Source of the DNA: a bacterium
GTDB taxonomy: Bacteria > Electryoneota > JAOADG01
DNA length: 64,000 bases
Direction: 5' to 3'
Assembly (NCBI GenBank): GCA_026417415.1
Contig: JAOADG010000012.1
Coordinates: 55,836-119,835, forward strand
Each line of letters begins with the position of its first letter. The first letter of the stretch is position 1. Below the pieces are notes generated by a model. The model had not been told where the DNA came from. It made no database searches and saw nothing but the letters and a program-made list of their open reading frames with translations. This document shows positions 1,197 to 21,710 of the stretch, piece by piece. The position numbers and the translations under genes are program-made.

Positions 1197-3548
1197 ATGA
1201 AAAAAGAAAGGTTGATCCTTTTCATCCTCTTTTGTTTGATCTATTCTTTAGGGGTTTCCGCTGAATTTGAATTATCACAAAATGTTCCTGTAAATGCAAT
1301 TCGTAACCTTGAAATACAATATCTTCCCAATCCCATAGATGAAACGAATGACACTTTATTATACCATTGGAATTTTACTACTCCTTCTGGTTGGACTTTT
1401 TACGATGCATCCAACTTACCTCCTTATTGGCATCCCGATACCGTTCCGGGACGTGGAAATGACAGTGCTTGGTGGTGTGGTACCAGAGAGTTTAGAGGAT
1501 ATGGAAACTACTGGAATCAAGTAGTACAAACTCCGATGTTGGATCTTAGCGCGACCACCAATCCTATTTTAGCATGCAAACTTTGGGTATCCGTAGAAAA
1601 CGGAAATTATGATGGTGTGACCTTATGGATTTCTACAAACGGAGGAAATTCATTTTCGGTGATAAACAATGTGAATCCGCCATACAATGCCAATAATCTA
1701 AATGCAGCATCAAGTTTGGTATGGAACTATGGAAACAATATTCCCGGTTATTCAGGTGAGACGTATGGATATCGTGTAGTCACTGCAAACTTAGTTAACT
1801 TCCGACAAGATTCGGTTATTGTACGATGGACCTTACTATCCGATCGTGCAATATCCTCAGAAACCAGAGATACCATGCGAGGCGCGTACTTAGATTCAAT
1901 CCGAATTTCCGATGGTGCAAACTTGTTGTTTGTAGATGATGGAAATCAAATGAATGCAAATAGTTTACAGCCGATACCGACGTGGGGTTTCGGTGTCTAT
2001 TGGACCTGGTCAAATGCACAATATGTTTCTGCACCTACAGCAGCCAACTGTGATGATGATATGCCCAATCAAGCAAGTTGTCTTGTGAGTCCACCCATTC
2101 AATTACCAAATATGGCAACGTATTTTCGGTTTCAAGTAAGATGTGATATGCCTGATTCTACTCATGCTGGAAGTAATTATCTAAGGGATTACTATCGTGT
2201 AGAACTGATGGGTCCTGATTCGGTTTGGAGATGGGTAATTTCTGATTATTCAAGAGGTGGTTATGGTTATCCCAATTGGTATGACTACGGACCGGGTTCG
2301 CCTTACAATGGTAACCTACAATTGAATCTTTCTGCTTATGCTGGTCAAACAATTAGATTAAGATGGAAAGCAATTACTGATTACGACAACAATCCAAGTG
2401 GTACAGGATTATGGATTGATGATGTACGCATTTATGGTACCGATGCACCTTTATATCAACTGATGCCATTGGAATTGAGAATTCCTTTTCCTACCACTTT
2501 AGGAAGAGATTTAACACAAACTCCATTTGTACGTATTAAAAATATCGGAGCAGGAAATCTTACTAACCTTCAATGGGCACTCCGTTTAGATAATGAGCAA
2601 TTTATCCAACAACCACCAATACCACTTTTACAAGCAGATAGTATTCGTTCTTATTCATTCAACTTAGAATTAGATACTGTTCGTTCATTTTATCCGGCTG
2701 TACGATTTATTCTTCCTAATGATTCAGTTGTATTTCAAGAATATGATGAAGTAATTATTCGGTCTCCGAACTATTATGAATTGGGTTATGATACAAGACA
2801 TTTTTGGATTGGAGATACTATGCCCAGTGGACGAAGTATCGCTGTTCGTTTTCAACCCTCTTCAGAAAACTTCCTTGGAAACTTTAATGTGGTTCAGGCA
2901 CGATTTGCTACAATGGGGGATCAAAGTGGAGCAGTGCATTTGAAAATTATGTCTGCTTCTGGAGCAAGACCCGGTTCTACTTTATTAGACACCATTGTTG
3001 TATGTACTCCAGGAAATCCAAATCGTGCCAAGTGGTATGAGTTTAATGTAGAAGGAAGACCTGAGGGAATGAATCGATCGGGTGTAATTTGGGTAGTATT
3101 AGATAGAGTTGCAGGTCAACCGTTACCGTTATTTGCTTGTGATACTATTACCTATGGAATTCAGAAAACGTATACTTGGCTTGGTGGAACTTCCACACCA
3201 TCCCAACACAATCGTGATGTTGCAGTCAGATTAGTGATCCAATGGCCATACAACGATGTGAATTCAAATGTAGAAAATATACTTCCCAATACATTTCAGA
3301 TATCTACGTATCCTAATCCAATGAATTCTATAACCAATTGTGTACTCACTCTTCCGAAGTCAGATGAAGTAAACATGAATGTATATTCAATAGATGGAAG
3401 AAAGGTGGATCAATTGTTCAAAGGTAAGTTACATGCAGGGAAACACACTTTTCAATGGAATGCGTTCAAGCAAACAAGTGGAATGTATTTTATCGTTGCA
3501 ACGAATTCTCACGAGATGAGAGTATCCAAATTGATTTTACTGAAATAA
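1197..3548 (+). CDS. Secreted protein with Por/type IX-type C-terminal sorting domain
   Basis: A 783-residue exported protein. It begins with a signal peptide (MKKERLILFILFCLIYSLGVSA, cut near residue 22) preceded by a strong AAGGAGG ribosome-binding site. The body (about 40-430) contains two beta-rich segments with WWCG and GLWIDDVRIYG motifs resembling the jelly-roll/MAM-like modules of immune-inhibitor-A-type proteins. A second beta-rich region follows. The last 85 residues (starting near STYPNPMN and containing NVYSIDGRKV, GMYFIVA and a terminal KLILLK) form a typical TIGR04183-like sorting domain, which in FCB-group bacteria directs export through the type IX system and cell-surface anchoring. 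No protease catalytic motif was found, so its activity is unknown. It is followed 14 bases later by the DUF3467 gene. Confidence 0.85.
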   Translation: MKKERLILFILFCLIYSLGVSAEFELSQNVPVNAIRNLEIQYLPNPIDETNDTLLYHWNFTTPSGWTFYDASNLPPYWHPDTVPGRGNDSAWWCGTREFRGYGNYWNQVVQTPMLDLSATTNPILACKLWVSVENGNYDGVTLWISTNGGNSFSVINNVNPPYNANNLNAASSLVWNYGNNIPGYSGETYGYRVVTANLVNFRQDSVIVRWTLLSDRAISSETRDTMRGAYLDSIRISDGANLLFVDDGNQMNANSLQPIPTWGFGVYWTWSNAQYVSAPTAANCDDDMPNQASCLVSPPIQLPNMATYFRFQVRCDMPDSTHAGSNYLRDYYRVELMGPDSVWRWVISDYSRGGYGYPNWYDYGPGSPYNGNLQLNLSAYAGQTIRLRWKAITDYDNNPSGTGLWIDDVRIYGTDAPLYQLMPLELRIPFPTTLGRDLTQTPFVRIKNIGAGNLTNLQWALRLDNEQFIQQPPIPLLQADSIRSYSFNLELDTVRSFYPAVRFILPNDSVVFQEYDEVIIRSPNYYELGYDTRHFWIGDTMPSGRSIAVRFQPSSENFLGNFNVVQARFATMGDQSGAVHLKIMSASGARPGSTLLDTIVVCTPGNPNRAKWYEFNVEGRPEGMNRSGVIWVVLDRVAGQPLPLFACDTITYGIQKTYTWLGGTSTPSQHNRDVAVRLVIQWPYNDVNSNVENILPNTFQISTYPNPMNSITNCVLTLPKSDEVNMNVYSIDGRKVDQLFKGKLHAGKHTFQWNAFKQTSGMYFIVATNSHEMRVSKLILLK

Positions 3549-5543: not shown

Positions 5544-7229
5544 ATGATTTATTCAAGAATTAGTTCCGGGTTAGAATTCCTTGATGCGACCTATGGTGGA
5601 TTGTACTCCAATCGGAGTTATTTGTTAAGAGGACCCTCGCAATCAGGGAGAACTACTGCTGCACTTCAATTTTTATTGGCAGGGGTAGAAAACAATGAAG
5701 CCGGTATTCTCATTTCTAGCGATCGAATTGAGAATGTCATTTTGAAAGCAGAATCCGTTGGTTTGTCTTTAGAAAATTATTTAATGGACAATCGTTTGAT
5801 TTTAATGGAATATCCAAAAGACATTATCAACGGTCGTTTTCAATTGGGTGGGATAATCCATCTATTGGGAGAGATAGAAAGGTATATCAACAATTATGGA
5901 TGTAGCAGAATCGTTTTTGATACCATTATACCACTTCTATCTAAAGCGAGAGAACCTCATTTAACCAACTATGTGTATTCATTGATGAATTCTCTGGATG
6001 CGTTGCATGGTACGATATTGGTGACTTCGGGTGAACCAAACAGTCCGGTTGCTACCAGAATTACAGAGTTGTTAGAAGATGCAGTTGTCGGTTCATTTGT
6101 ATTGAGTTCAATTCCTTTAAGACAAGGAACGCAAAAGACCTTTTCTGTTCATAAAATGATTAATCCATTGTTTCCACCACAAACCTTCAAAATCAAATTT
6201 GAATATGGGACAGGAATTGTACTTGATGAATCTGGTATTGCTGCAGAAATGGGAAGCGAATCCCTGACTCATGTCAATATCCAAGAAATTCCTTTACATA
6301 TAGCAGTGTTAGATCGAGATGAAGACACACAATCTTATTTAGAAGATATCTTTGCAAAGGGTAGTCATGTGGTGTTGGTAGAGAGTGAAGAAGAGTTGTT
6401 ATCCCAACATTTGTTATTGGATTATGACGTGGTCTTAATAAACACCCGTTGTGCACCCAACTGGCATCAAATTGTTCCAGTGGTAAGAGAAGCAAACCCT
6501 AAACAACCAATTTATATCATTTCTGAAAGTCGCGTAGGATCAATTAGTTATCAAGCGGTCAAACAAATTGGTGCAGATGGATTGTTTTATAAACCGATGG
6601 CAAAGCAAGATGTATTAAAGGCGATTGAAAAAGCATTCCGCACTTATGGAATTTTGGATGATATCATTGAGAAGCGCTTGCGTTCACCATTAACCAATAT
6701 GCCGGTTGATTTTGAATCTCCTGCGATAATGGGCGATCAAGTCGTAGTAGAGCAAACAACCAAAACAGGAAATTTAATTACCTTAGCCGTTTTCAAAGAG
6801 CAAGTCCAACTCCAAATTTTGAAAAGCAATCAAGGTTCCTACAAATCCTCTTTTGCTTTAGTTTCCTTCCGAATGATTAGTACACCCGAAATTACCAAAT
6901 TGCCAAATCTACCGTTGGGATTAGAACTAGTGAAAAAGGTGGCTAATATCATCAGTGTTTCTTTAAGAGGTGCAAATGATCGTGCATGTAGAAGTATGGA
7001 CAAAGTGATTGTTTTGCTTGAAGATTGTGATAAAGAAGGAGCAGAAGCATTTGTAAAGCGAGTGTTCCATGAAATGAAATCAGAGATTCAAGCCAAACTT
7101 AATATCCAAATTGGTAAACATCTGATGATTTCTAATGCGATTGCTATTTATCCAAAAGACGGGTCAGATGTGCAAACGCTGATTTCCCACGTGACAGATC
7201 ATTCCAGAAACTTTAAACTGATTAACTAA
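5544..7229 (+). CDS. KaiC-like ATPase / receiver / GGDEF-like regulator with degenerate active sites
   Basis: A 561-residue cytoplasmic protein that opens the putative exopolysaccharide operon. Residues 1-235 form a KaiC/RAD55-type RecA-fold domain. Its Walker A is GPSQSGRTT, with Arg36 where the family has Lys, and Walker B IVFD ends at Asp126. Residues 250-365 form a CheY-like receiver: the acidic pocket (D257, D259) and Lys350 are kept, but the phospho-acceptor position in DVVLIN is Asn300. Residues 430-545 follow the pattern of a GGDEF domain (VSFRM, LVKKVANII, VIVLLEDCDKEGAEAFVKRV), yet RSMDK (483-487) replaces the signature loop. Catalysis and phosphorylation therefore look lost, and a ligand-binding or scaffold role is inferred. 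The start has a good AAAGGAG site, and the next gene follows after 10 bases. Confidence 0.75.
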   Translation: MIYSRISSGLEFLDATYGGLYSNRSYLLRGPSQSGRTTAALQFLLAGVENNEAGILISSDRIENVILKAESVGLSLENYLMDNRLILMEYPKDIINGRFQLGGIIHLLGEIERYINNYGCSRIVFDTIIPLLSKAREPHLTNYVYSLMNSLDALHGTILVTSGEPNSPVATRITELLEDAVVGSFVLSSIPLRQGTQKTFSVHKMINPLFPPQTFKIKFEYGTGIVLDESGIAAEMGSESLTHVNIQEIPLHIAVLDRDEDTQSYLEDIFAKGSHVVLVESEEELLSQHLLLDYDVVLINTRCAPNWHQIVPVVREANPKQPIYIISESRVGSISYQAVKQIGADGLFYKPMAKQDVLKAIEKAFRTYGILDDIIEKRLRSPLTNMPVDFESPAIMGDQVVVEQTTKTGNLITLAVFKEQVQLQILKSNQGSYKSSFALVSFRMISTPEITKLPNLPLGLELVKKVANIISVSLRGANDRACRSMDKVIVLLEDCDKEGAEAFVKRVFHEMKSEIQAKLNIQIGKHLMISNAIAIYPKDGSDVQTLISHVTDHSRNFKLIN

Positions 7230-7239
7230 AGGTAATTTT

Positions 7240-10200
7240 ATGCGCTCGTGGATAGTCGTGTTCATAATAGGTATCGGATTGGCTTCAATCGTTAAAGCAG
7301 AAAGCCCTGAAGACATCCTATACAATGCAAAACAATTGAGATATGAAGGCATCTTAATCGAATCCGCATCGTTGTATGAAAAGTATCTTTTGCAAAATCC
7401 CAATGATGTTGAAGTCCGTTTTGAGTTCATTGAGTTACTGGAAATGTTAAAACAGAAAGAAAAAGTCATTGCACAGGTAAGAATACTTCGTAAGCAAGTT
7501 CCCAATGATCCACGGTTGGAAAAGTATTCAGAATTGCTGATTAGTACGAAAAAGGAAGCAATTGAGTCCAAGGTGAAAGAATTTGAAAACTATGTGAGCA
7601 GCCCTAATCCAAATCCGAAAACAGTTCTTGACTATGCACGATACTGCGCAAGTAGCGGATTGGTTGTAAGAGCATTTGAATTGTACCAACAATATTTGAG
7701 ATTAAGACCAAACGATGATCGGATAAAACTTGAGTTTGCGCAACATTTGGGTTGGAACAATCGTTTCTCTGAATCGGAAGAGTGGTTAAATGAAATCCTA
7801 AAAAACAATCCCAATAACGTTGAGGCGAGAATGTTTTTGGCAGACATTAAGTACTGGCAAGGTTTTGATGATGATGCTTTACGTCAATATGAAACTGTCC
7901 TCAAAATTGCACCGAAAAATAACCGCGCTCTTGATGCAATAACGAGAATTAAAAAATCAAGCGGCTATCAAGAGAGAAAGTTGATTGCTGAAGCAAAAAA
8001 TAATCCTGAAGGACAAGCATTAATTTCTTTAGCAAAATTCTATTACTCAGTGGATCGCTTTTACGAAGCAGATTCTTTACTAAAGTTACGTCTCCAAAGA
8101 ATTCCAGATGATCGTGAAGCAAAAAAATTGTACAACGAAATGCAGGAAAATAGAAAGGTATTTTTTCAAAGGAAGATCAAAGATTTAGAAAATGCACTAA
8201 TTCAAAATCCTAACGATGCTTCCACCATTTTACAACTGGCAAGATTACACAGTGCAAACGCAAATTTCTCAAGAGCGATAGAACTCTACGACAAGTATCT
8301 TTCAATTACAGGTGATGATTTCAATATACAACTAGAACGAGCGAATGTATTGAATTGGAATGGAGATTATGCAAATGCAATTCAAGAATACCTCGATGTA
8401 TTGTCCCACCAACCGGATAATCGTAGTGCAAAAGTTGGTTTAGCATTTGCACAATTGTACCTAAACCAAAATTTAGAGGAAGTAGAATCATTATTCCAAG
8501 ATGAATTAAAACAAAATCCCAAAGATTTAGAAGTAAAACTCGGTTATGCAGAAGTGTTGTATAAACAAGGAAAGTTTGATCAAGCAAGAAAGATGTTCAA
8601 AGAGATCGTTGAAGTAGATACTGCAAATGTAACAGCAAAAAAAGCATTACTTGCAATGGATACGGATCTATCGCCTATGATTTATCAAGCAGAAAATGTA
8701 GTTCGATCCAATCCATCGGACCTACAAGCCAAAAAGCGTTTATTAGGTTTGTACTTGGATGTTCATCGCTTTTTTGAAGCGGAAATTTTGCTCAATGAAT
8801 TACTGAAAAATTCACCCAATGATCCATACTTAAAATCCATGCAAAATGAAATTAATCAGTATAAAAAATCGTACGCCTTAGATGAGTTGAAGAATATAAA
8901 ACTCCAAATTCAGTTATATCCAAACGATACATCCTATAGAATAAAGTATGCCCAGTTGTTGACTTTGGCAGGAAATTTCAAAGAAGCATCAGAACAGTAC
9001 CGTTTATTAATTGAACGTGAACCGAATAATCCTCAACATTACCTACAGTTAGGTGAAATTTACATTGCACAAAAAAAATTAAATGAAGCGCAATGGGTGT
9101 ATCAAGGTTTAATTGAAAGATTTCCAACGAATACGGACTATCGTGCAAAGTATGCACAACTCTTGGCATGGGATGGAAAAAACGACGCTGCATTGGTGGA
9201 ATATGAGCAAACATTAGCGATGAATCCAAACTCTGTAACAGCATTAGTCGGTTTAGCCAATACATACAAATGGCGTGGGGATAGTTACAATGCGTACGAA
9301 TACTACCAAAAGGCCTTGGCGATTGATCCACAAAATACTGAAGCAATCAATGGACTCAAATCTTTACGAAATGTATTTATTCAAGGGTTGCAAACCTATG
9401 CAAGAGGGCTTCACGACAATAATGGATATCGTTACAATGAATACGGTTCTGAATTCATCGCACACATCTCGATCAATACCCAAGTGTCTATAGGAAGTGG
9501 TTCAATAAACTTTTCACAAGATGGTTTTAGAGAATTGGGATGGTCTATCAATTCTAAGCTTAAATACAATTTTAGCCGATTTACATCGGCGTCTGTTGAA
9601 TCCAAGTTTTTCCAATTTAAAAACCGATACACCAATTCCTTAGCAGTAAATCTTATGCATGATTTTTCTGGAATAAACGAACTCAAAGGTTTAACCATTC
9701 ACTTACTTTACAACTATGGAGATGCTGTATTTGAACTCGGTTCACTGCAAAATTTACAAACTTGGACTGAAAAATTGATCACAGAAAAAATATCAAGTCA
9801 TATCGTTTACCAAATGGACACATCCACTACCTTAGAAGGTAAAGTAGATTACATTTCAATTTCTGATAGGAACTCTCGTACTGATCTATGGTCTGAAATT
9901 GGTTACAAAATTAGTCCGATCTTAACGATCGGTGGAAGGTACGATTGGGTCTCCTCACCTGATACTGGTAAAATAGGTGGATATTGGGCGCCTAAAAACT
10001 ATGCATCAATTACTGGTTGGATAAAACTGGCAAATCAACTGGATAGGTTCAATTACGAAGTGAAATTGAATTTGGGTCAAGTGATGAATACAAAAAATAC
10101 TATAAGCACAACTCAAGCAAAACTTGGTTACAAAATGGTAGAATGGTTAACAACAGATTTTTCTTATTTCCATCTTCGAACGATACGATTGGATGGAAAG

Positions 10201-10245
10201 TATAACTATGAAGGTTTATTAGGTTCACTAACATTTCATTGGTAA
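7240..10245 (+). CDS. TPR-rich periplasmic/outer-membrane beta-barrel protein (PgaA/BcsC-like exporter)
   Basis: A 1001-residue protein starting with a signal peptide (cut near residue 20, IVKA). Residues 25-700 are a long array of tetratricopeptide repeats, recognisable by recurring NPNDVEV, YEKYL, YQKALAIDPQN-type units. The last ~280 residues alternate polar and hydrophobic positions as an outer-membrane barrel and finish with an aromatic residue (SLTFHW), the usual Bam recognition feature. This TPR-then-barrel layout is that of PgaA, BcsC and AlgK/AlgE, which guide newly made polysaccharide through the periplasm and outer membrane. Position directly before a GT2 synthase supports the same job here. 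Which polymer is exported cannot be told from the sequence. Confidence 0.82.
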   Translation: MRSWIVVFIIGIGLASIVKAESPEDILYNAKQLRYEGILIESASLYEKYLLQNPNDVEVRFEFIELLEMLKQKEKVIAQVRILRKQVPNDPRLEKYSELLISTKKEAIESKVKEFENYVSSPNPNPKTVLDYARYCASSGLVVRAFELYQQYLRLRPNDDRIKLEFAQHLGWNNRFSESEEWLNEILKNNPNNVEARMFLADIKYWQGFDDDALRQYETVLKIAPKNNRALDAITRIKKSSGYQERKLIAEAKNNPEGQALISLAKFYYSVDRFYEADSLLKLRLQRIPDDREAKKLYNEMQENRKVFFQRKIKDLENALIQNPNDASTILQLARLHSANANFSRAIELYDKYLSITGDDFNIQLERANVLNWNGDYANAIQEYLDVLSHQPDNRSAKVGLAFAQLYLNQNLEEVESLFQDELKQNPKDLEVKLGYAEVLYKQGKFDQARKMFKEIVEVDTANVTAKKALLAMDTDLSPMIYQAENVVRSNPSDLQAKKRLLGLYLDVHRFFEAEILLNELLKNSPNDPYLKSMQNEINQYKKSYALDELKNIKLQIQLYPNDTSYRIKYAQLLTLAGNFKEASEQYRLLIEREPNNPQHYLQLGEIYIAQKKLNEAQWVYQGLIERFPTNTDYRAKYAQLLAWDGKNDAALVEYEQTLAMNPNSVTALVGLANTYKWRGDSYNAYEYYQKALAIDPQNTEAINGLKSLRNVFIQGLQTYARGLHDNNGYRYNEYGSEFIAHISINTQVSIGSGSINFSQDGFRELGWSINSKLKYNFSRFTSASVESKFFQFKNRYTNSLAVNLMHDFSGINELKGLTIHLLYNYGDAVFELGSLQNLQTWTEKLITEKISSHIVYQMDTSTTLEGKVDYISISDRNSRTDLWSEIGYKISPILTIGGRYDWVSSPDTGKIGGYWAPKNYASITGWIKLANQLDRFNYEVKLNLGQVMNTKNTISTTQAKLGYKMVEWLTTDFSYFHLRTIRLDGKYNYEGLLGSLTFHW

Positions 10246-10280
10246 TCCCTAAAAAAGTGTAATTCAATACTGGAAGAAAA

Positions 10281-11732
10281 ATGGAAACGAATACAAAAAA
10301 TCAGGTTCACGAATCCAAGCAAAATCCTGTGGTAGTTAGCCAAAGTGGTCACATTGGATCCTCTTCTGCAATCACCACAACTGGTGAGCAATATGTAAAA
10401 ACTACAAGTTCCGAATGGGGTTATTGGTTTATCATCATTATGCTTTTGATCGTATTCGGAACGATAACAGTTTCTACGTACATCCTTCTGTTAAAATCTG
10501 AGTTTTCTATACCCAATATTGTCGTGAATGTGTCCATTATTTCTTTGATCTTGTTCTTGTTTTTGGTCATTGTACGATATTTAACCTTAGTCATTTTAAG
10601 TTACTTACACCATGCAAGAGATGCTGCGATTGACGATTATGACTATCCCCTTCTTCGCGTTTCCATTTTAGTACCGGCATACAACGAAGGTCCGCTGATT
10701 GGTAGATCCATTGAATCTTTACTCGAAATGGATTACCCAAACTATGAAATTGTTGTGATTGATGATGGTTCAAGAGACAATACTCTATCTGAAGCAAAAA
10801 AATGGGAAGGTACGCAACCCGGAAAATATGGTCCTGTCGTGGTTCGTGTACTAACACAACCAAATATGGGGAAAGCACATGCACTAAATCATGGCGCATC
10901 TGTGGCTACCGGTGAAATCGTGGTCTGTATGGACGGAGATAGTCGTCTTTCACCAAATACCCTTCGAGCAGCTGTACGACACTTTGCTGATCCACAAATT
11001 GTAGGTGTAGCAGGAAATGTGAAAGTACTGAATCGTGTCAATATGCTCACAAGATTGCAAGCATTGGAGTACCTTGAAGGTTTGAATTTAGTCCGACGTG
11101 CTCAAGCTTATATACACGCTGTAAATATTGTTCCCGGACCTATTGGTCTCTTTCGAAAAAGTGCATTAATGGAAGTAGGAGGTTGGGACTCGGATACTTT
11201 CGCAGAAGATTGCGACTTGACACTCAAATTGGTTACTAAAAAAGGTCACATTGAGTACGAACCAGAAGCCATTAGTTACACAGAGGCACCGGAAAAACTG
11301 CTCCAATTACTAAAACAAAGATACCGTTGGACACGAGGAATCTTACAAGCATTGCGTAAACACCGTTTCTATCTATTTAATCTGGCAGCAGGATGGAGAA
11401 GTTTACTAACCATGTGGCAGATGATTTTTGAATCTGTTTTCTGGCCCGGAATGAACATTTTAGCAAACACCATGTTTTTACTGGTTGCAATTCTATATGG
11501 TATGTCGCCACTAATCGTATTATGGTGGGTACAACTCACTGTGTTAGATACCATTGCAGCGTTGCACTCTGTAGCTATGGAGAAAGAAGAATTGCGTTTA
11601 GTTCCTTTTGCAATTTTATACCGATTTTACTTTATCCAATTGGTGGACTTTGCAAAATTGTTAGCCACCATTGAAGAGATGTTAGGCATCAAAATGAGTT
11701 GGGGTAAAGTCGAAAGAATAGGAAGATTGTAA
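10281..11732 (+). CDS. Membrane-embedded processive GT2 glycosyltransferase (polysaccharide synthase)
   Basis: A 483-residue inner-membrane synthase. A ~45-residue polar N-terminus leads into two membrane helices (about 47-71 and 80-108), followed by a cytoplasmic GT-A domain and a C-terminal hydrophobic region (about 370-435). All processive GT2 signatures are present: DDGS (161-164), DGD (218-220), AEDCD with the catalytic acid (309-311) and QRYRW (346-350). This is the set shared by cellulose, hyaluronan and poly-N-acetylglucosamine synthases, and the overall length and topology resemble PgaC/IcaA most. No PilZ domain is fused, so any cyclic-di-GMP effect would have to act through another protein. 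Sugar specificity is not deducible. Confidence 0.92.
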   Translation: METNTKNQVHESKQNPVVVSQSGHIGSSSAITTTGEQYVKTTSSEWGYWFIIIMLLIVFGTITVSTYILLLKSEFSIPNIVVNVSIISLILFLFLVIVRYLTLVILSYLHHARDAAIDDYDYPLLRVSILVPAYNEGPLIGRSIESLLEMDYPNYEIVVIDDGSRDNTLSEAKKWEGTQPGKYGPVVVRVLTQPNMGKAHALNHGASVATGEIVVCMDGDSRLSPNTLRAAVRHFADPQIVGVAGNVKVLNRVNMLTRLQALEYLEGLNLVRRAQAYIHAVNIVPGPIGLFRKSALMEVGGWDSDTFAEDCDLTLKLVTKKGHIEYEPEAISYTEAPEKLLQLLKQRYRWTRGILQALRKHRFYLFNLAAGWRSLLTMWQMIFESVFWPGMNILANTMFLLVAILYGMSPLIVLWWVQLTVLDTIAALHSVAMEKEELRLVPFAILYRFYFIQLVDFAKLLATIEEMLGIKMSWGKVERIGRL

Positions 11733-11760
11733 CGAGTTTAAAAAAAGAAAGGAAATAATC

Positions 11761-12105
11761 ATGGAATTGGTATTAATACTATCTACTTTCATCAACTTTG
11801 TAACACTGATTGTTTTAGTGATTGTGATTGCATCCTATCTCACCTTAAAAATGAAGGAAAGAAAAACAGTGCAATTACAAAAACAAAATGTTACAGATTT
11901 AGTAGCGCAAGAAAAACTTCCAACATCAATCAACATTACCAACACACCACCAATACCAGTACAGGTATCTGTTGCGTTGTCACAGACAAACCATCAAAGT
12001 TTAGGAAATACCACACAAACACAATATCACTTTTTATCTGAACGATCAATACCTGTGAAATATGAAAATGGTAGTTGGAGATTAGGTTTTCGATCAACGC
12101 TTTAA
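11761..12105 (+). CDS. Small single-pass membrane protein, paralogue of the 12354 gene product
   Basis: A 114-residue protein with one N-terminal membrane helix (about residues 3-28), then a basic KMKERK motif and a polar, low-complexity tail. The first ~38 residues match the 12354-12989 product in length and pattern (MELxxxLST, then a helix ending before KMKERK or RMKERR), so the two arose by duplication. The tail is Q/T-rich and ends in SWRLGFRSTL. It has a clear GAAAGGAAA ribosome-binding site and lies 28 bases after the synthase gene. By analogy with PgaD or BcsB-type accessory subunits it may associate with the synthase, but that is inference. Confidence 0.7.
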   Translation: MELVLILSTFINFVTLIVLVIVIASYLTLKMKERKTVQLQKQNVTDLVAQEKLPTSINITNTPPIPVQVSVALSQTNHQSLGNTTQTQYHFLSERSIPVKYENGSWRLGFRSTL

Positions 12106-12125
12106 TTGAAAAATAGGATCGTAAA

Positions 12126-12338
12126 ATGAACAAGAATCCGAATAAACAAATGCGATTAAATCCTTTAAGAATAATTTTCGATCAAGAAGAACTACCCAAA
12201 AGTGATTTATTTCAAATACAAGCGCAGATCGAAGTTTCAGAAAATGAACATTGCGTACAATCGGTAAATGGTTCTTATAAATCTGTTTTGGATCAACTGC
12301 CATTAAGCAGTCAATTCGTAAACTTTAAAAAACAATAA
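12126..12338 (+). CDS. Small hypothetical protein within the exopolysaccharide operon
   Basis: A 70-residue soluble protein without recognised family. It sits between the two paralogous membrane-protein genes, 20 bases after the first and 15 before the second, with a modest AGGATC upstream of its ATG. It has no membrane helix or signal peptide, and the composition is ordinary for a coding frame. Its reality rests mainly on position, as the frame exactly fills a gap in a compact operon. Confidence 0.55.
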   Translation: MNKNPNKQMRLNPLRIIFDQEELPKSDLFQIQAQIEVSENEHCVQSVNGSYKSVLDQLPLSSQFVNFKKQ

Positions 12339-12353
12339 CGAAAGGAAATTACA

Positions 12354-12989
12354 ATGGAACTCATTCCATTACTTTCAACAATCATCTTCTTGATTACCTT
12401 AATCACGTTTATTGTTGCAATTGTTTCTTACATTGTCTTTCGTATGAAAGAACGAAGAAAAGCAACTGCAAGACCAAGTGCACCTGCACAACCAACGCAA
12501 CCACCGAATTTAAGTGGTGGAATGCAGTACCCTTCTAATGAAACGGTGCAGCATTCAAATCCAAATCCTGTTGTACCACCAAAGATTGTTCCAATTCCAA
12601 CACCACCACCTACGAACCAAGAACAACAAAACTATCCATCAAACTATCAACCGATGAATACGACGGGTTCTTATCCAACCCAAACGGTTCGGCAACCGCA
12701 AGTACCACCAATGCAGGTGCCGCCACCGGTACAACCACCCCAGATGATTGTACCACCACCTCCACAACCTACGATGGAACCGCAATTAACTTCGGCGCAA
12801 GCTGCATTTTTACAGAGTTTTACTGGTGAAAAAGTGCCTTTGCGAGAAACACCTTTAGAAGAACCGATGGAATCACAATCTACCATGCAACCACGTAGAT
12901 TTGTACTACCCGGTAACAAAATGCAGCAAACAAAAAGTAATCATCCACCATCTGAACCTGAGAATGGAGGTGTTTTAAGTTGGAAGTAA
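12354..12989 (+). CDS. Single-pass membrane protein with proline-rich tail
   Basis: A 211-residue protein. One N-terminal membrane helix (about residues 3-30) is followed by RMKERRK and a ~120-residue proline/glutamine/threonine-rich region with several PPP runs (for example near residues 80-86 and 118-145), then a short polar C-terminus ending GGVLSWK. The N-terminal helix is homologous to that of the 11761 product. The positive-inside rule places the proline-rich tail in the cytoplasm, where it could act as a flexible interaction arm. The ribosome-binding site is GAAAGGAAA and the stop is one base before the next ATG, so translation is probably coupled to the NodB-fold gene. Confidence 0.72.
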   Translation: MELIPLLSTIIFLITLITFIVAIVSYIVFRMKERRKATARPSAPAQPTQPPNLSGGMQYPSNETVQHSNPNPVVPPKIVPIPTPPPTNQEQQNYPSNYQPMNTTGSYPTQTVRQPQVPPMQVPPPVQPPQMIVPPPPQPTMEPQLTSAQAAFLQSFTGEKVPLRETPLEEPMESQSTMQPRRFVLPGNKMQQTKSNHPPSEPENGGVLSWK

Positions 12990-12990
12990 C

Positions 12991-14895
12991 ATGCGATTCA
13001 GAGTGATTTGGATTTGGATCGTTTTGAATTTCGCTTCAGCTCAAGCTGGAATTCGTGCATTGGTCATACAGTCAATGAATGATGGAAAAATCAATACAAT
13101 GGAAAAAAATAGTATCGGTTATCTGCAAATCATGAAAAATAGAGGATGGAATGTGGAATTAACATCCAGCAACGATCATCATCATTCATTTGAGAATTAT
13201 GACTTAGTTGTGATTGAGAATTCAAATCAACTCAACGATTCTACTTGGACAAAATTAAAAACATTCCAACAACGAGGTGGCTGTATTTGGATGGGTTCAA
13301 CAAATTCCAATGTAGAATCTGACCGTCATTTCCAGCAATTGAATCAATTTTTCAATGGTCAATTCAGAAAATTACCTCATCAGTCAAATGTTTCTCAGTG
13401 GATACAATTGAAAGGAGAATCTCCTGTAACCTTGAAACTTCTTCCTGGACACCGAATCAAAACCGACACAGATAATTCAGAGGCAATTGGTGTGGAAGAA
13501 ATTGATTCTAACAAAACCATAGCTTATTGGAGTAATCTTATCAACAACCCAGACGACTACTTTCTATTGAAGCCGTTGGTGGCAATGTTCTTTCATTCTG
13601 GTCGGAATAATGATCGTCTAATTTGGTGTGGTTTTCAAATATCAAACGAACCTTTTGCATCAGACCAATTAGAAAATTTTACATTAACAGAAGAGATTTT
13701 AGATTGGCTTTCAGGAAATGCTACCATTGGAATTGCTGCTTGGAAGTACGGAAGACACAGTGCTTTATCAATTCAATGTATCAGCGACTATGATTTTCCA
13801 AATATCCGCTCATTACTTAAAATACTTAGAAAACATAACGCACCAATCACCATTTTTACATCCTCTGAGGAATTAACACAATTTTCTTTACTTACAAAAG
13901 AGCTGCTCAAATTCAATTCTGAATTTGCTATCAATGGGATAAAACTTAATGAAATGACTGATGAAAGCAGTGTAAAACAAGCCGAAATAATACGAAAAGA
14001 TCTTGATAAATTTAGTAGAATCGGGCTTGTTCCAAAAGGAGTTAAACTTCATCAAGATCAATGCACACAGAATACGCTCAATGCGGTTCAAGCAGAAGGA
14101 TTAGAGTATTTATCTACTATTTCCACTTCTTTGAATGTTTATCCCCAATTTATCCACGATAAAACCAAATCTTCATTTCTAGGTGGATTGGTACTATTCT
14201 CCAAATCAAACTTAGACGATTATGATCTATTCATAAAACATAAAAAATCGGATGCTTTCAGCAATGCTGAACGTTTGTATAAAGAATTTCTAAATACCCA
14301 CCAATTGTACGGACTTTATCAGTTCAGTTTTTCCGCATCGAACATTTCTCAATGGAATTACAATATTACACTCGATTATTTTCTACAAAAAATTCAAAAA
14401 GATCAAGTATGGCTTGCCACGGCAGCAGAAATTGCTCAATGGGTGAGGCAACGTGAGCAATTAAAAGTTTCTAAGTTTAGTACAGATACCACAGTTTATG
14501 TAGAGGTGATCAATTTATCCAATGAAACAATAGAGGGAGTGGTTTTAATCATTTCACAACCGAAAAAAGTAGGTGCTGATTTTTTAGAAGTAGTCAATGT
14601 TTCAAAAGGATGTACATTTGATTTTACGGACACTGAATTGCTTATTGAATTACCTCCTTTGCCACCAAAAGCAATATTTACAGCGAAATTGGCTGAAAGA
14701 ACCAAAGGTTGGTTCAAAGTGTCCTTAAAACATTTACCTAAAATCGTTCGCTGGAGTATTCTCATTACACTAATTTTTTTCGTTGCAGCAGGATACTATT
14801 TATTTATCGCGAAAAAAAGACACATTCACGCTGCTGCTGAGAACAATACCTTGAAGGATCAAGGTCAAATTCGAAAGACAGGATCAGGAAGGTAG
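12991..14895 (+). CDS. Membrane-anchored NodB-fold protein with degenerate deacetylase motifs
   Basis: A 634-residue exported protein. A signal peptide (cut near ASAQA) is followed by a Rossmann-like N-terminal domain (about 20-235) of the class-I-amidotransferase-like type often seen beside carbohydrate-active domains. A polysaccharide-deacetylase-like segment (about 250-470) begins ALSIQCISDYD and is recognisable from LLKILRKHNAPITIF. A beta-sandwich-like region follows, then a C-terminal membrane helix (about 586-607) with a basic cytoplasmic tail. The TFDDG motif is replaced by a QCISDYD-like sequence and no HxxxH metal motif is seen, so deacetylation activity is doubtful. It parallels PgaB in context. 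The start lies one base after the previous stop. Confidence 0.65.
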   Translation: MRFRVIWIWIVLNFASAQAGIRALVIQSMNDGKINTMEKNSIGYLQIMKNRGWNVELTSSNDHHHSFENYDLVVIENSNQLNDSTWTKLKTFQQRGGCIWMGSTNSNVESDRHFQQLNQFFNGQFRKLPHQSNVSQWIQLKGESPVTLKLLPGHRIKTDTDNSEAIGVEEIDSNKTIAYWSNLINNPDDYFLLKPLVAMFFHSGRNNDRLIWCGFQISNEPFASDQLENFTLTEEILDWLSGNATIGIAAWKYGRHSALSIQCISDYDFPNIRSLLKILRKHNAPITIFTSSEELTQFSLLTKELLKFNSEFAINGIKLNEMTDESSVKQAEIIRKDLDKFSRIGLVPKGVKLHQDQCTQNTLNAVQAEGLEYLSTISTSLNVYPQFIHDKTKSSFLGGLVLFSKSNLDDYDLFIKHKKSDAFSNAERLYKEFLNTHQLYGLYQFSFSASNISQWNYNITLDYFLQKIQKDQVWLATAAEIAQWVRQREQLKVSKFSTDTTVYVEVINLSNETIEGVVLIISQPKKVGADFLEVVNVSKGCTFDFTDTELLIELPPLPPKAIFTAKLAERTKGWFKVSLKHLPKIVRWSILITLIFFVAAGYYLFIAKKRHIHAAAENNTLKDQGQIRKTGSGR

Positions 14896-14978
14896 AATGT
14901 ATCAAATTGAAGTGACAAGATAATTTAAGATAAGGTGAAAAAGGAAAATCAAATCAAATTTGATAACAGGGGTATAAC

Positions 14979-17081
14979 GTGGAAAACACAAATTCAACAC
15001 CCAAACAAAACGCTGGTAAAAAATCGCTTCAACGCTCTAAGCGTAGAAACTTAGAGCAAGTAGGAAGAAGCAGAACAGCATTCTTTACAGTGCGAATGTT
15101 CACACTGATGTTTCTTCTTGCAGTCATAGGATACTGGGGTTATACACAAGTCATGAGTCAAATGTATGGACGATTTGATTTATTTCAACATGAAACTGAA
15201 AGAACAGCTGGTGTACCTGAAGGATGGTATGGTGACCCGAGAGTAATTCTCATTAATCCTGCTCGTACTGAAATATTTTTGAGAAATCAGTTAGATACAG
15301 CAAGATGGCCCTATGGACCAAGGAATGATGACTGGCCGTTAGCAGATACATTATGGTATGCAAAAGGAATTAAAAGAGTAGCAAAAAAAGATGTAGAAGC
15401 CTGGAGATTAACAGGTGATCGTTCCAGAGAAGGAATGCTGGTAGATTACTGGAAAGATTATTTAACCAAGAAAAATATCTATTACAAAGTGTACGAAGAA
15501 CCAGCCTTGTTAGGAGATTTGACCACATTTGACTTAATGATTTTACCGGGTGCTGTTTTATTATCTGATGCAGAGAAATCAGCAATCAAAAAGTTTGTAG
15601 CAAATGGAGGAAATATTCTGACCTGTTGGTCAATCGGTGCTAGAAATGAAAATGCTGAATGGATTGGTTTTGATTTTTTATCACAACTGATTGGAGCAAT
15701 TCCCACTTTTGATGTAAGGGATACTACAGGTGGAACAAGTGTTGTACTCAACGGGAATAGTCCAATCAATGCAATGATACCTCCGGGTACACATTTAGAG
15801 TTTTTCACCTACAATGCATTTATTACCATGGAAGTTGTCGAGCCAAGATCACATGTTGGGGGATGGTGGTTTTATCCTTATTGGAAGGAAAATGCCAATC
15901 CAAATCAGCGTGCAATGATAGTTCATGGTGAATACCTGAAAGGGAAATTCGTTTGGTTTTCATTTACACCAGAAACTATTCAAGATGCAAAAAACAATCA
16001 CATCATATTCGATCGAATGGTTAACAATGCGATACATTGGTTGCATGGTAAACCGTTAGTCAATGTAAATTTATGGCCCATTGGATATCGTTCAGCAGCT
16101 GCGTTAATCCTCAATGTAACTGGGAATACCTATGAATATGAAAAGTTATCCAATTCAATAGATTTTGGTTCAACACAAATGGATTTATTAGTAGATACTG
16201 ATTTTCCGATCAGTAATAAAATGAAAATTCCCACTCAATCAGATTGGATCATCAAAGCCAATCCTAAAATAAAACTGAGTGATAACGACATCATTGAACA
16301 AAATAAATGGATGAAATATCAAGTTGAACGAGTGGAAAAGGCGATCGGAAAATCTCCAGTGGGTTATATGCCACCTAACTGGAATTCAGATGGAAATACA
16401 TACATCGTATGTGCAAGAAATAACTTAAAATTCCTTTTATCCGATCAAAATCCACGGCATTATGGTCCTGAATCCAGATTGATCAAACACAGTGGATGGT
16501 GGGTCTTTCAAAGAAAATCACATTTGTTAACTATGCCTAAGGCATCTGTTTCCTTAGATGAATGGTTAAATGTAAAATCATTGGAAAGTTCTAAAAATGC
16601 TGTACTTTGGATGAAAGCAGATTTACAACGGATTGCAAATGCTGGTGGATTGTATGTTGGAATCTTTGATGCATCAACTTCTATTGATGAAGAGAAAGAA
16701 TTTTTGCAAGATATTTCAAATTCAATTGATTCTTTAGGTATGTGGAGAGCACCAATTAGTAAAATCATGGAAAGATACGGTGCATGGATAAATATCAAAG
16801 CAAGTGCAGAACCTGTATCAAAAACGCGTATACGCGTGAATATATCTAATACCGGAAATTTTACGATTAGGGACATTCCAGTTACAGTGTACCTTATTAG
16901 GGAGTTCGAATCTGTAACGGCAAAACCTGAACAAGTATCAGGACAAATTCGTAGGACTGTATGGAATCGATCTCAAGGTATGTTCACATTCACAATTGAA
17001 AAAATTGGTGCGAAAGATAACGTTACCATTTACATTGACGTAGCAGCAAAAGGTGTCGGAAGAATTGCAGCAGCAAATTAA
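14979..17081 (+). CDS. Type II membrane protein with amidotransferase-like and degenerate NodB-like domains
   Basis: A 700-residue protein with a basic cytoplasmic N-terminus, one membrane helix (about residues 36-56) and a large periplasmic part. Residues ~70-360 form a class-I-amidotransferase/ThuA-like domain (FDLMILPGAVLLSDAEK, FVANGGNIL). Residues ~365-620 align by pattern with NodB polysaccharide deacetylases, including IGKSPVGYMPPNWNSDG at the place of the RPPYG motif, but the DD and HxxxH metal ligands are missing (ALILNVTGNT, KANPKIKLSD). The C-terminal ~85 residues look like a beta-sandwich. It shares this layout with the preceding gene. The GTG start follows an AGGGG site; the 83-base gap to the previous gene holds an ATCAAATTTGAT palindrome. 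Confidence 0.65.
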   Translation: MENTNSTPKQNAGKKSLQRSKRRNLEQVGRSRTAFFTVRMFTLMFLLAVIGYWGYTQVMSQMYGRFDLFQHETERTAGVPEGWYGDPRVILINPARTEIFLRNQLDTARWPYGPRNDDWPLADTLWYAKGIKRVAKKDVEAWRLTGDRSREGMLVDYWKDYLTKKNIYYKVYEEPALLGDLTTFDLMILPGAVLLSDAEKSAIKKFVANGGNILTCWSIGARNENAEWIGFDFLSQLIGAIPTFDVRDTTGGTSVVLNGNSPINAMIPPGTHLEFFTYNAFITMEVVEPRSHVGGWWFYPYWKENANPNQRAMIVHGEYLKGKFVWFSFTPETIQDAKNNHIIFDRMVNNAIHWLHGKPLVNVNLWPIGYRSAAALILNVTGNTYEYEKLSNSIDFGSTQMDLLVDTDFPISNKMKIPTQSDWIIKANPKIKLSDNDIIEQNKWMKYQVERVEKAIGKSPVGYMPPNWNSDGNTYIVCARNNLKFLLSDQNPRHYGPESRLIKHSGWWVFQRKSHLLTMPKASVSLDEWLNVKSLESSKNAVLWMKADLQRIANAGGLYVGIFDASTSIDEEKEFLQDISNSIDSLGMWRAPISKIMERYGAWINIKASAEPVSKTRIRVNISNTGNFTIRDIPVTVYLIREFESVTAKPEQVSGQIRRTVWNRSQGMFTFTIEKIGAKDNVTIYIDVAAKGVGRIAAAN

Positions 17082-17115
17082 ATCAACAAAAACAAGTGTA
17101 AGTTTTGGAGTAAAA

Positions 17116-19281
17116 ATGAAAAGGCAATTCTTATTCAAGCAAAAATTATTTATACGGTTCTTCTTTTACACACTTTTAGGATTTATTTGGATTGGGTGTC
17201 AAACACTCAGTGAATCTCCTGCAGAAAAAAATAGGCCACCAATCATTTATAGTGTGTATTATTGGTCCAATGATTCCTTACGTGTGGAAGTGGGTGATAC
17301 GGTGACAATACAATGCAATGCAAATGATCCTGATAATGATCCCATCAGGTACAAATGGGAAGCATGGATGGGTGGAATTGTTGTTGATTCAACTTTTCGT
17401 GGAAGATGGTTGGCAATGTCAACAGATCTTACCATGTTGGACACCAATCGAGTAGATACGGCACACATTATCGTACGGGTTTCTGACCGATGGGCGACCA
17501 CGGTTGATACTGCAAAAATTATTGTTGCACCTCGTGGCACTTATGTACGTGGACCGCACGTAGATACACTTATAGTCGCTACAGATACAGTAGAAGCAAC
17601 AGATACACTCAACATTACCGCTAAAGTGAGACATACTTTTGGGTTTGCCACGCGTGCAACTTTTTGGGTTTTACCAGATAGTGGAGATTTGTTAAATGAA
17701 GATACGACATTTCGTTACGATTCAGTTCGTTCGGTAAAATGGGTTTCGCCGCGTACACCCAATCTATACACGATAGGTGTTACCCTTAAAGATACTACCA
17801 ATCGTGAATCAGTAAAATCAACAAATGTTCGGGTTGTACCGCTCGGCTTTTTTAATGTACCTCCTTCTATTGATAGTATTCGAGCAAATCCTGCCGTCAT
17901 TGCTCGAAATAGTACTTCAAGAATTGTAGCATACATTACCGATCGAGACGATTCGATTAGTAACCTAAATATCGTTTGGAGTGCAAGATATGGAACAATT
18001 TTAGTAGATACGACCAATCCTGCAGAAATCAATTGGACAGCACCAAATGATACAGGAGTATTTTATATTCGCGTTACTGCTTCCGATGCATTTCGAATGG
18101 ACACTGATTCAATTGCCATTCGTGTGACTTATTACGATCTTACCAATCAACCACCTGAAATTCTTACAATTCGTGTTACACCATCACCGGTAGTGCGAAG
18201 TACGATCGCTCAAGTGACTTGTACGGCAAGAGATCCTGATAACCGACCGCAACCATTAACCTATCAGTGGTTTACAAGTTGGGGAACTATTATAGGGAGT
18301 TCTACCGATAGCAACATAACTTGGCAAGCGCCGCAGTTTATCGGAAATTATTCCATTCGTTGCCAAGTATCAGACGGAGAACGTACAGATGTGGATAGCA
18401 TTTTAGTTCCAGTCGTTCATCCAATCAACTATCCACCTCAAATCATTTCTATTTCTGCTTCTCCAAGTAGAATGAATCCCTTAGATACTGTTTCATTAAC
18501 TTGTCTTGCTTCTGATCCGAATGGTGACGCTTTGTCGTATTTATGGACCGCAGATGATGGCACATTTTTAGAAAATGGATTTTCTACAGTAAACTGGATT
18601 GCTCCGCTTTTAGATGGGAACTATACAATACGATGTACGGTTAGTGATGGCATAAACTCTGTCCGTGATAGCATCATGGTTTCTGTTTCTTCTACTTTTC
18701 AAGAATTGTATAGCAGTTCGTTTAGCAGTGAACTTGAAGTAATCAACAATTGGAATGCGAGCGATACACTTTCAGTATTAAGCACTACTTCAGGAATGTA
18801 TATTTTGGGTTACAACTTCTCCACTTATTCAATGGAGATAACCGCACGCGGAAACAATAGTACTTTTGGTTTTCAATTACAAAATCGTTCATTTAACAAT
18901 GCTACCTATCAAATAGGGGTCAGTGCTTCGGATCGGAATTTTTCAAAAGCAGGTATGTTACCCAAGTTTGTAAACAATCGTACCTATCTCTATGTGGGTT
19001 TAAACTTTTCAAATTCAATGATTGAAGTGATTCAAGTAGTCAATGGTAGTTTAATTAGTTCAGTTCCAATTCCTTTTGTTTCAATGCAACCCAATCGTTT
19101 TTATACCTTATCCTGTTCCCAAATTGGAAACCAAATTCAAGTAAAACTAAACAATCAAATTGTTCACAACGGGAACATTCATAGTGCACTTGCAAACAGT
19201 GCTCCTTTTGGTGTTGCAGTGAATGGTGCACAAAATTCAGGTACTGTACTTTTTGACGATCTTTTGATCTTCATCCCATAA
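17116..19281 (+). CDS. Lipoprotein with tandem Ig/PKD-like domains and a C-terminal lectin-like domain
   Basis: A 721-residue protein. The ATG at 17116 is preferred because TTTTGGAG lies upstream; an in-frame ATG at 17053 is inside the preceding gene. The N-terminus KLFIRFFFYTLLGFIWIGC is a lipoprotein signal with cysteine about residue 35. About five Ig/PKD-like repeats follow (recurring DPDNDP or DPNGD, YxWxxxxG, W.AP...G.Y.IRC.VSDG), and the last ~190 residues resemble a LamG/concanavalin-type beta-sandwich ending FDDLLIFIP. Such proteins usually bind surface glycans or other proteins. As the last gene of the operon, with 34 bases to its neighbour, it may tether the polymer to the envelope. 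Confidence 0.72.
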   Translation: MKRQFLFKQKLFIRFFFYTLLGFIWIGCQTLSESPAEKNRPPIIYSVYYWSNDSLRVEVGDTVTIQCNANDPDNDPIRYKWEAWMGGIVVDSTFRGRWLAMSTDLTMLDTNRVDTAHIIVRVSDRWATTVDTAKIIVAPRGTYVRGPHVDTLIVATDTVEATDTLNITAKVRHTFGFATRATFWVLPDSGDLLNEDTTFRYDSVRSVKWVSPRTPNLYTIGVTLKDTTNRESVKSTNVRVVPLGFFNVPPSIDSIRANPAVIARNSTSRIVAYITDRDDSISNLNIVWSARYGTILVDTTNPAEINWTAPNDTGVFYIRVTASDAFRMDTDSIAIRVTYYDLTNQPPEILTIRVTPSPVVRSTIAQVTCTARDPDNRPQPLTYQWFTSWGTIIGSSTDSNITWQAPQFIGNYSIRCQVSDGERTDVDSILVPVVHPINYPPQIISISASPSRMNPLDTVSLTCLASDPNGDALSYLWTADDGTFLENGFSTVNWIAPLLDGNYTIRCTVSDGINSVRDSIMVSVSSTFQELYSSSFSSELEVINNWNASDTLSVLSTTSGMYILGYNFSTYSMEITARGNNSTFGFQLQNRSFNNATYQIGVSASDRNFSKAGMLPKFVNNRTYLYVGLNFSNSMIEVIQVVNGSLISSVPIPFVSMQPNRFYTLSCSQIGNQIQVKLNNQIVHNGNIHSALANSAPFGVAVNGAQNSGTVLFDDLLIFIP

Positions 19282-20009: not shown

Positions 20010-21710
20010 ATGAGTCCTCTTAACAATGAAGTCATTTTGCCTTGGATATTTCCCCATTTTGACAGTTTACTGAGCAATGAGCCATTGCAAAGTTTACTGG
20101 ATCGATATTGCAAAGATGCTTGTGATTTAACGGGATTTACCAAAGCTGTTGCAGTTTCCATCGCAACAAATGCTGAAGCGGTTGGAATTTCCAACATTCA
20201 AGAAAATTTGCGAAAAGCGATTTTAGAAAATTTGCAATACAGTGGATCTGCATCCGATATGAATCCACCTGAAGCTTTGGTAAAACAATACCAAATGAAC
20301 AATAACTACATTAGTTTTATACCAGAAGAAAGCAATTCACCATTGCCGAAAACCATTTTATCAAAGGATTTTATTGCGAGAGGAACGTGGAAACCAAAAG
20401 ATGCTTTGTATTTATTATTGTATTCTGAAAATGGTGAATACCTTGGAAATTTAAGGTTAGCAGATCCGTCAGATTACAATCGTCCGAATTTTAACGATCC
20501 TGAAACCATACAGATTTTTAATGAGATTGCTATCGTGGGTGGAAGATTGATTGACTATTACTTGAGATGGCAAAGGTTAAGAGGATCTGAACTTTTGTAT
20601 ATGTATGCGTTTGACCAAACGAGCAATTTTATCATGCTAATCAATGATAAAGGACAGTTTTTACGCGCAAATTACGCCTTCAACGAATTTTGTCAGAATC
20701 ATCATACCAAAACATCAGATTTGATCAAGTTGATTAAAGCGCAAAATTCTAAGCAATGGGAGTACTTGATCAAAAATGCTGAAAGTGTGCATCTTACTCT
20801 AACCTTCAAACCCTTGGGTGCTAAAAGTAAACTTGAATTTGATATCGTTGCCAAACCTTTGATTCCAAATACCAACTATGCTTCTATATTAGAGTTGAAA
20901 CTCGTTTCAGATGAGAATAAAGAGTCAAAACCACTAGAGAAAACTAAATCTGAAAAGAAAACGAAAGCAGAAGAGAGTGAAGTAGAAACCTTTGAAAAAA
21001 GTTTAGAAGAAACTTCGTTTGAATCTGAAATTGAAGAAAAAAGGCATACTGCTGAAAACAATGCATCTTCGGCGTTACCACAGAAACAACAATCTGAATT
21101 AACATCAGAACAAATGGACATATTGATGGAGATATCCGGTAACATTGCACAACATTTGTCCATTGTATCTGGAAATGTAGAACTGATGAAGATGGACGAA
21201 AAGAATGAAACCCATCTGAAAATCATGGATATTATTTTAGTCGCTGTTGATCGAATCAATCAACAATTGCAAAAAATTCGTGATTTAGATAAAATTCACA
21301 ATAAACCTGAAATTGTCCAACACCCCAGAAAGTCAAAGCAGATAAAACCTAAAGGGGTTTTGTGTGTAGAAGATGAACCACAAATTCTTGAACTGTTAAG
21401 TGCTATTGTTAAGCAATGCAATGAAGAAGTGATTACCGCAGAAAATGGTAAAGAGGCATGGGAATATATCAGTCAAGGCAATTTACCTAAATTGGTAATT
21501 TCTGATGTACGAATGCCTTTCATGAGCGGTTTTGAATTGCTTAGAAACATTCGTAATTCTGAATTGAATATTCCAGTGATTTTAATTTCTGGATTTTGGT
21601 CAGAAGACACCATTCAAGAGGCAAAAAAATTAGGCGTTGTTGATTTTATGCCCAAACCCTTCCCAGTAGCAAAACTGATTCAACATATAAACAGTATTAC
21701 CAGATCCTAA
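20010..21710 (+). CDS. GAF-PAS-receiver signalling protein
   Basis: A 566-residue cytoplasmic sensor/response protein. Residues ~1-190 look like a GAF-type domain (starting ILPWIFPHFDSLL, with VGGRLIDYYL at its end), and ~195-300 is a PAS-like domain (LLYMYAFDQTSNFIMLINDKGQFLRAN). An acidic low-complexity linker runs ~300-365. A helical segment with NIAQHLSIVSGNVELM resembles a HisKA dimerisation helix, including a histidine. The C-terminal receiver (about 445-566) has VEDEP, the phospho-acceptor aspartate in LVISDVRMP, and a lysine in MPKPFP. There is no HATPase domain, so autophosphorylation is unlikely and a separate kinase would be needed. It overlaps the convergent malQ gene by four bases. 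Confidence 0.78.
   Translation: MSPLNNEVILPWIFPHFDSLLSNEPLQSLLDRYCKDACDLTGFTKAVAVSIATNAEAVGISNIQENLRKAILENLQYSGSASDMNPPEALVKQYQMNNNYISFIPEESNSPLPKTILSKDFIARGTWKPKDALYLLLYSENGEYLGNLRLADPSDYNRPNFNDPETIQIFNEIAIVGGRLIDYYLRWQRLRGSELLYMYAFDQTSNFIMLINDKGQFLRANYAFNEFCQNHHTKTSDLIKLIKAQNSKQWEYLIKNAESVHLTLTFKPLGAKSKLEFDIVAKPLIPNTNYASILELKLVSDENKESKPLEKTKSEKKTKAEESEVETFEKSLEETSFESEIEEKRHTAENNASSALPQKQQSELTSEQMDILMEISGNIAQHLSIVSGNVELMKMDEKNETHLKIMDIILVAVDRINQQLQKIRDLDKIHNKPEIVQHPRKSKQIKPKGVLCVEDEPQILELLSAIVKQCNEEVITAENGKEAWEYISQGNLPKLVISDVRMPFMSGFELLRNIRNSELNIPVILISGFWSEDTIQEAKKLGVVDFMPKPFPVAKLIQHINSITRS

Follow-up and report, generated by a model that had tools for sequence, protein, structure and literature searches.

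Among described polysaccharide systems, Bcs couples a family 2 glycosyltransferase (GT2) and a tetratricopeptide repeat (TPR) beta-barrel protein with an endoglucanase, BcsZ, of the GH8 family, while Pga/Ica is recognised by a GT2 beside a small membrane protein, a TPR-barrel exporter and a NodB-fold periplasmic protein. PgaD and IcaD are non-homologous to each other, and each is required by its synthase (PMC7112194). An alpha/beta/alpha carbohydrate-binding-like domain, a CE4-like domain and a beta-sandwich are joined in Agd3 (CE18/CBM87) and PelADA (CE26/CBM114), with the same kind of domains occurring in PelA (CE21) (PMC7229062, PMC13254593, PMC12022489), and the likeness of a PelA domain to ThuA and IFT52 has already been reported (PMC12022489). 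A locus resembling parts of these systems is located at positions 5544 to 19281 of the 64,000 nt stretch of DNA analysed here (the window, to the whole of which all coordinates refer), which lies on contig C20 in a Calditrichota genome 2.2 Mb in size. We judge this operon of eight genes, all encoded on the + strand, to be a genuine and widespread variant of synthase-dependent exopolysaccharide secretion, the core of which is found in several phyla. It is very probable that the cluster produces a sugar polymer and exports it to the surface, and a probability of about 0.72 is given to the fuller reading, in which the eight genes form a synthase-dependent exopolysaccharide machine working through KaiC gating, an inactive NodB guide and a GH9 glucanase. 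No description of this system was found in the open-access literature, including that on KaiC with exopolysaccharide, on Melioribacter and on GH9 operons. The class of pga loci without pgaD (PMC7112194) may be a relative.

Comparison of the eight proteins against Pfam distinguished KaiC, receiver-like and degenerate GGDEF domains, TPRs, a GT2 domain, ThuA/GH42M-like and polysaccharide deacetylase-like domains, and PKD/Ig repeats. The predicted processive GT2 synthase (10281..11732) retains the IDDGS, DxD, AED and QRYRW motifs, which are invariant in nine orthologues, and shares 31 % identity over 322 aa with E. coli PgaC. PgaC_IcaA is its best NCBIfam model (209 bits; cut-off 422). The putative outer-membrane exporter (7240..10245) is predicted, on the basis of Pfam TPR matches and a C-terminal profile, to consist of a TPR solenoid followed by a beta-barrel, and is similar in design to PgaA, BcsC and PelB, with the NCBIfam PgaA model scoring 78 bits against a cut-off of 367. 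Downstream of the GT2 gene, a family profile detects a small protein with one transmembrane (TM) segment (12354..12989), which is a putative synthase subunit matching PgaD/IcaD by position. Its N-terminal helix, MELIPLLSTIIFLITLITFIVAIVSYIVFRMKERR, is highly conserved in the compared lineages (e.g. MELIPILSTIILVATISTFILAIGAYILYKVRERR), while the low-complexity tail often ends in WK or WR in relatives and, in the window, is Pro-rich, probably cytoplasmic, and terminates in SWK. Relatives carry a single copy of this gene; the window has two, the other (11761..12105) encoding a diverged one-TM duplicate.

The same 10/39 Calditrichota genomes carry orthologues of both the GT2 synthase (57–70 % identity in an alignment of the Calditrichota orthologues) and NodB2. 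The order KaiC-TPR-GT2-small TM-NodB1-NodB2-Ig is repeated among them, with some loci ending at contig ends and the copy in one genome (G010) having frame breaks. A scan across phyla, using one genome per species, yielded 333 synthase relatives, and gene content was counted for the best 80 of these, which carry the labels Ignavibacteriota, Bacteroidota, Myxococcota, Verrucomicrobiota, Lentisphaerota, Eiseniibacteriota, Rhodothermota and others. Among the loci with room for the gene concerned, a KaiC-type gene is present in 48/50, a TPR gene in 60/62, a beta-barrel (profile of the C-terminal 300 residues) in 59/62, a small TM gene downstream of GT2 in 77/78 (profile search) and a NodB-fold gene in 68/70. 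As these 80 are the best-scoring relatives, twelve further loci were sampled across other phyla; three were repeats, and the nine new loci mostly carry the same gene set. The synthase family is patchy in its distribution, being found in 13/80, 8/112 and 3/145 sampled genomes of the phyla to which the Ignavibacterial, Myxococcal and Verrucomicrobial loci belong, respectively. The arrangement is not due to chance, since other Calditrichota show the same gene order and other phyla the same core. Five genes make up this cross-phylum core, encoding the regulator of KaiC type, the exporter with TPRs and a beta-barrel, the GT2, the one-TM peptide and a NodB-fold protein, and it recurs in Ignavibacteria, Myxococcota, Verrucomicrobia, Lentisphaerota and others. 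The Ig/PKD lipoprotein and NodB1 are additions of particular lineages, and the extra small gene is a local duplicate. Of the nine-gene neighbourhood that the earlier note proposed to look for across phyla, this five-gene core is conserved and the full set is not.

The first of the two NodB-fold proteins, NodB1 (12991..14895), is predicted to comprise a signal/TM segment, an alpha/beta/alpha (GIFT/ThuA-like) domain, a CE4-like domain, a beta-sandwich and a C-terminal TM segment, while NodB2 (14979..17081) has an N-terminal TM segment followed by alpha/beta/alpha, CE4-like and beta-sandwich domains. In the AlphaFold2 (AF2) models (pLDDT 83 for NodB1 and 68 for NodB2) both match CE4 folds, 3rxz being aligned by VIA-align with Z 26.1 over 234 residues of NodB1 and, as the best match, with Z 22.4 over 238 residues of NodB2, which supports both NodB folds of the earlier note. 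Foldseek places Agd3 first for NodB2, for which VIA-align also returns PelA (Z 15.4). The models further match 6nwz, 9cgy and the ThuA-like 4jqs, so that the three-domain architecture of Agd3 and PelADA is found here too. The amidotransferase-like (GATase-like) domain reported in front of each NodB domain is thus present, but was rejected as a new feature distinguishing the locus from known systems, as this architecture is published. Differences from Agd3, PelA and PelADA lie in the membrane anchoring of the operon proteins, a GT2 partner rather than PelF, and the conservation of an inactive class.

Activity of the CE4 type was taken to require a catalytic Asp, an acidic residue and two His residues as metal site, and a catalytic His. 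At the six catalytic positions of the family alignment, window NodB1 has I,D,N,L,K,S in place of the D,E,H,H,R,H of intact relatives, and the CE4-like domain of window NodB2 likewise lacks the catalytic residues. The complete set is retained in eleven relatives, namely the NodB1 of several Calditrichota, one protein each from Myxococcota, Eiseniibacteriota and Lentisphaerota, and three paralogues from the genome of the window itself. The proposal of two pseudo-enzymes and no clear active deacetylase consequently holds for the window but not for the class, and inactivity of every NodB protein in the system was rejected. Most of the intact relatives have an H-x-D-x-E motif, close to the H-x-D-x-D of PelA (PMC12022489). 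In every Ignavibacterial copy examined the metal site is gone, and other residues are conserved in its place (VDIGYL, ARDDYEVI). The NodB tree suggests an older split between a class with active members and a class without any, in a topology where deep branches are weak and several long branches meet, and on which no conclusion is therefore based here. The CE4 pseudo-enzyme BA3943 (7bkf), which is among the fold matches of both window proteins, likewise has a CE4 fold without catalytic activity, while differing in that the inactive protein here belongs to an operon and is conserved as part of it across several phyla. The three paralogues are encoded in tandem, with complete catalytic residues, at a second locus without a synthase (C29:11272-19713; L058 3272-11713), alongside a TPR-barrel protein 32 % identical to that of the window. 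Given these complete sets, deacetylation may be supplied in trans by the C29 proteins, which are unlinked to the operon. In some relatives (L049, L050, L052) NodB1 has a long C-terminal tail that contains an RTS[IVL] element and ends in Trp, and which window NodB1 lacks; the terminal Trp is common to the small TM protein and the cytoplasmic NodB1 tail in relatives, an observation graded as weak.

The first gene (5544..7229) encodes a putative cytoplasmic regulator with KaiC-fold, receiver and GGDEF-like domains (Pfam KaiC 3.5e-20, GGDEF 2.2e-5; motif alignment), in agreement with the RecA-fold regulator recognised earlier, and the same three-domain protein occurs in Calditrichota and Myxococcota. 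Its P-loop, GPSQSGRT, carries Arg in place of Lys, as do 51/57 operon-linked KaiC copies, whereas the unlinked PF06745 matches of the same genomes have Lys wherever the P-loop was recovered. The phospho-Asp position of the receiver is Asn in the window, and is replaced in most Calditrichota copies but retained in most Myxococcota copies. No GG[DE]EF motif was found in the window or any of the linked copies scanned. Going beyond the earlier note, the receiver and GGDEF domains thus look inactive too. The KaiC, receiver and GGDEF-like domains may act by binding only, and the arginine P-loop may still be able to bind nucleotide. As features of the sequence, the conserved inactive deacetylases and the arginine P-loop of the regulator are well supported.

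A GH9 glucanase, missed by the earlier note, is a genomic partner of the operon. In many Ignavibacterial loci, the gene immediately upstream of the KaiC-type one encodes a GH9 (cluster of 37). Since the association was first seen in Ignavibacteria, its co-occurrence in Calditrichota serves as an independent check; there, GH9 is encoded by 9/10 genomes with the operon and 0/29 without (Fisher p 5e-8, in a test that ignores shared ancestry), and the same holds within family f2 (5/5 with and 0/4 without) and family f4 (2/2 and 0/5). In two Calditrichota genomes GH9 is located within ~6 kb of operon genes. The genome of the window has a sole GH9 gene (contig C13, L202 9285-10970), the product of which is ~36 % identical to Ignavibacterial GH9. 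Solved relatives of this GH9 are mainly endo-beta-1,4-glucanases. The adjacency in Ignavibacteria and the co-occurrence in Calditrichota suggest that GH9 is a partner similar to BcsZ and that the polymer is beta-1,4-linked.

From these components we infer every activity, the polymer chemistry, the guiding role of NodB and the gating. The GT2, aided by the one-TM peptide, would polymerise a beta-linked (N-acetyl)hexosamine or glucan and extrude it through the inner membrane, where the membrane-anchored Agd3/PelA-like NodB proteins would take up the chain in the periplasm. The active NodB class, represented by the NodB1 of several relatives and, in the genome of the window, by the C29 paralogues, would deacetylate the chain, while the inactive class (NodB2, plus window NodB1) would guide or hold it. 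Export would proceed through the TPR/barrel protein, with the GH9 glucanase trimming or clearing the polymer and the lipoprotein retaining it at the surface, and the KaiC-receiver-GGDEF-like protein would gate the synthase by binding rather than catalysis.

A diverged Pga operon, making the same poly-N-acetylglucosamine (PNAG) through the same roles, with an Agd3/PelA-like deacetylase replacing PgaB and the small TM gene replacing PgaD, would account for the one-to-one correspondence of gene roles and for PgaC_IcaA being the best NCBIfam model for every GT2 tested across phyla. The scores of 205–225 bits, however, reach about half of the 422 bits that the curated cut-off demands, the GT2 is the only detectable relative, gene order differs, and the operon lacks the PgaB hydrolase domain. 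E. coli PgaA, PgaB and PgaD have no match to the family profiles at E<=10, a comparison that would miss homology too distant to be seen in sequence. Furthermore, the operon has a KaiC-type regulator, its NodB proteins are often inactive, with Ignavibacteria carrying inactive NodB only, and the partner hydrolase is a GH9. We regard such a diverged Pga operon as rather improbable, and the first proposal, an operon of Pga-like logic that is not Pga, is supported. A cellulose-like system, in which the GT2 makes beta-1,4-glucan, GH9 acts as BcsZ and SGNH and NodB-like proteins decorate or guide the chain, draws on the GH9 adjacency and co-occurrence, the gene for an SGNH-like esterase that separates TPR from GT2 in ~20 loci and the inactive deacetylase of Ignavibacteria. 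This reading is unlikely; the Pfam matches of the eight proteins include neither PilZ, as already noted, nor BcsB, the synthase is PgaC-like rather than BcsA-like (the CelA model scores merely 60–78 bits), and the active deacetylase class of other lineages implies N-acetylated sugars there. Pel differs in its synthase, that of the locus being a GT2 and not PelF-type, a comparison limited to the locus, with PelF elsewhere in the genome not searched. Very improbable is a decaying operon, in which the NodB1 site was lost as the polymer is no longer modified here; window NodB1 has lost all catalytic positions and sits on a long branch (1.9) of the NodB tree, but each of the eight genes has an intact open frame and its orthologues form a conserved set, and three paralogues with complete sites are retained at C29.

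Several points weigh against the synthase-dependent machine with KaiC gating, NodB guide and GH9 as favoured above. Besides the lack of detectable relatedness to PgaA, PgaB and PgaD, GH9 is unlinked to the operon in the genome of the window, it is missing from the operon-bearing G010 (77 % complete, with a broken GT2), and shared ancestry may contribute to the GH9 co-occurrence, being ignored by the Fisher test. The hints on linkage also conflict, as the PgaC-like synthase suggests beta-1,6-linked N-acetylglucosamine and GH9 suggests beta-1,4 linkage. It is only tentatively proposed that several phyla share a further class of secretion, in which the inactive deacetylase is an obligatory periplasmic guide, a nucleotide-binding, non-hydrolysing KaiC protein gates the synthase via the one-TM peptide, and an undescribed beta-1,4-type polymer is cut by a dedicated GH9. 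If true, the favoured reading would describe a polysaccharide secretion lineage under KaiC-fold control instead of the usual cyclic di-GMP/PilZ logic, with a conserved inactive deacetylase, and would supply a candidate matrix polymer for phyla with little biofilm biology (Calditrichota, Ignavibacteria). The one-TM peptide, the P-loop arginine and the GH9 partner offer handles for its study.

What the sequence itself shows is which genes are present and how they are conserved, which folds are predicted and which motifs are intact or lost. The earlier description of nine co-directional genes with short gaps and no internal terminator was correct in orientation; the genes number eight, and they overlap or are separated by 1–83 nt, apart from one longer gap of 248 nt that separates the genes for the small membrane proteins. 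Over both strands, 12 terminator-like sites were found where 8.8 +/- 2.4 would be expected, a number close to chance, and those on the + strand lie inside genes. The last gene (17053..19281) encodes an Ig/PKD-repeat lipoprotein (Pfam PKD/Ig) with a lectin-like C-terminal domain (weak 3keto-disac_hyd), the true start of which is probably downstream of 17053, judging by the lipobox LGFIWIGC. In Ignavibacteria an Fn3 lipoprotein occupies this position and, with a hybrid kinase, comes after the NodB gene. The kinase takes a place similar to that of a HisKA-like and receiver protein of the window (20010-21710), encoded downstream of the operon past an opposite-strand phosphatase-like gene. Just upstream of the operon (1197-3548) is encoded a large secreted protein that ends in a sorting-type domain and resembles type IX secretion cargo, and a protein with a region similar to it adjoins the operon in another genome (G001; L047 17076-19070). 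The SGNH/GDSL-like esterase of the Ignavibacterial loci (e.g. L078 8366-9640 and 19 similar) is a possible source of O-acyl modification, while in Myxococcota (L073 13051-14331) a canonical polysaccharide deacetylase, with the motif TFDDG, has a gene of its own after a shorter NodB-like one.

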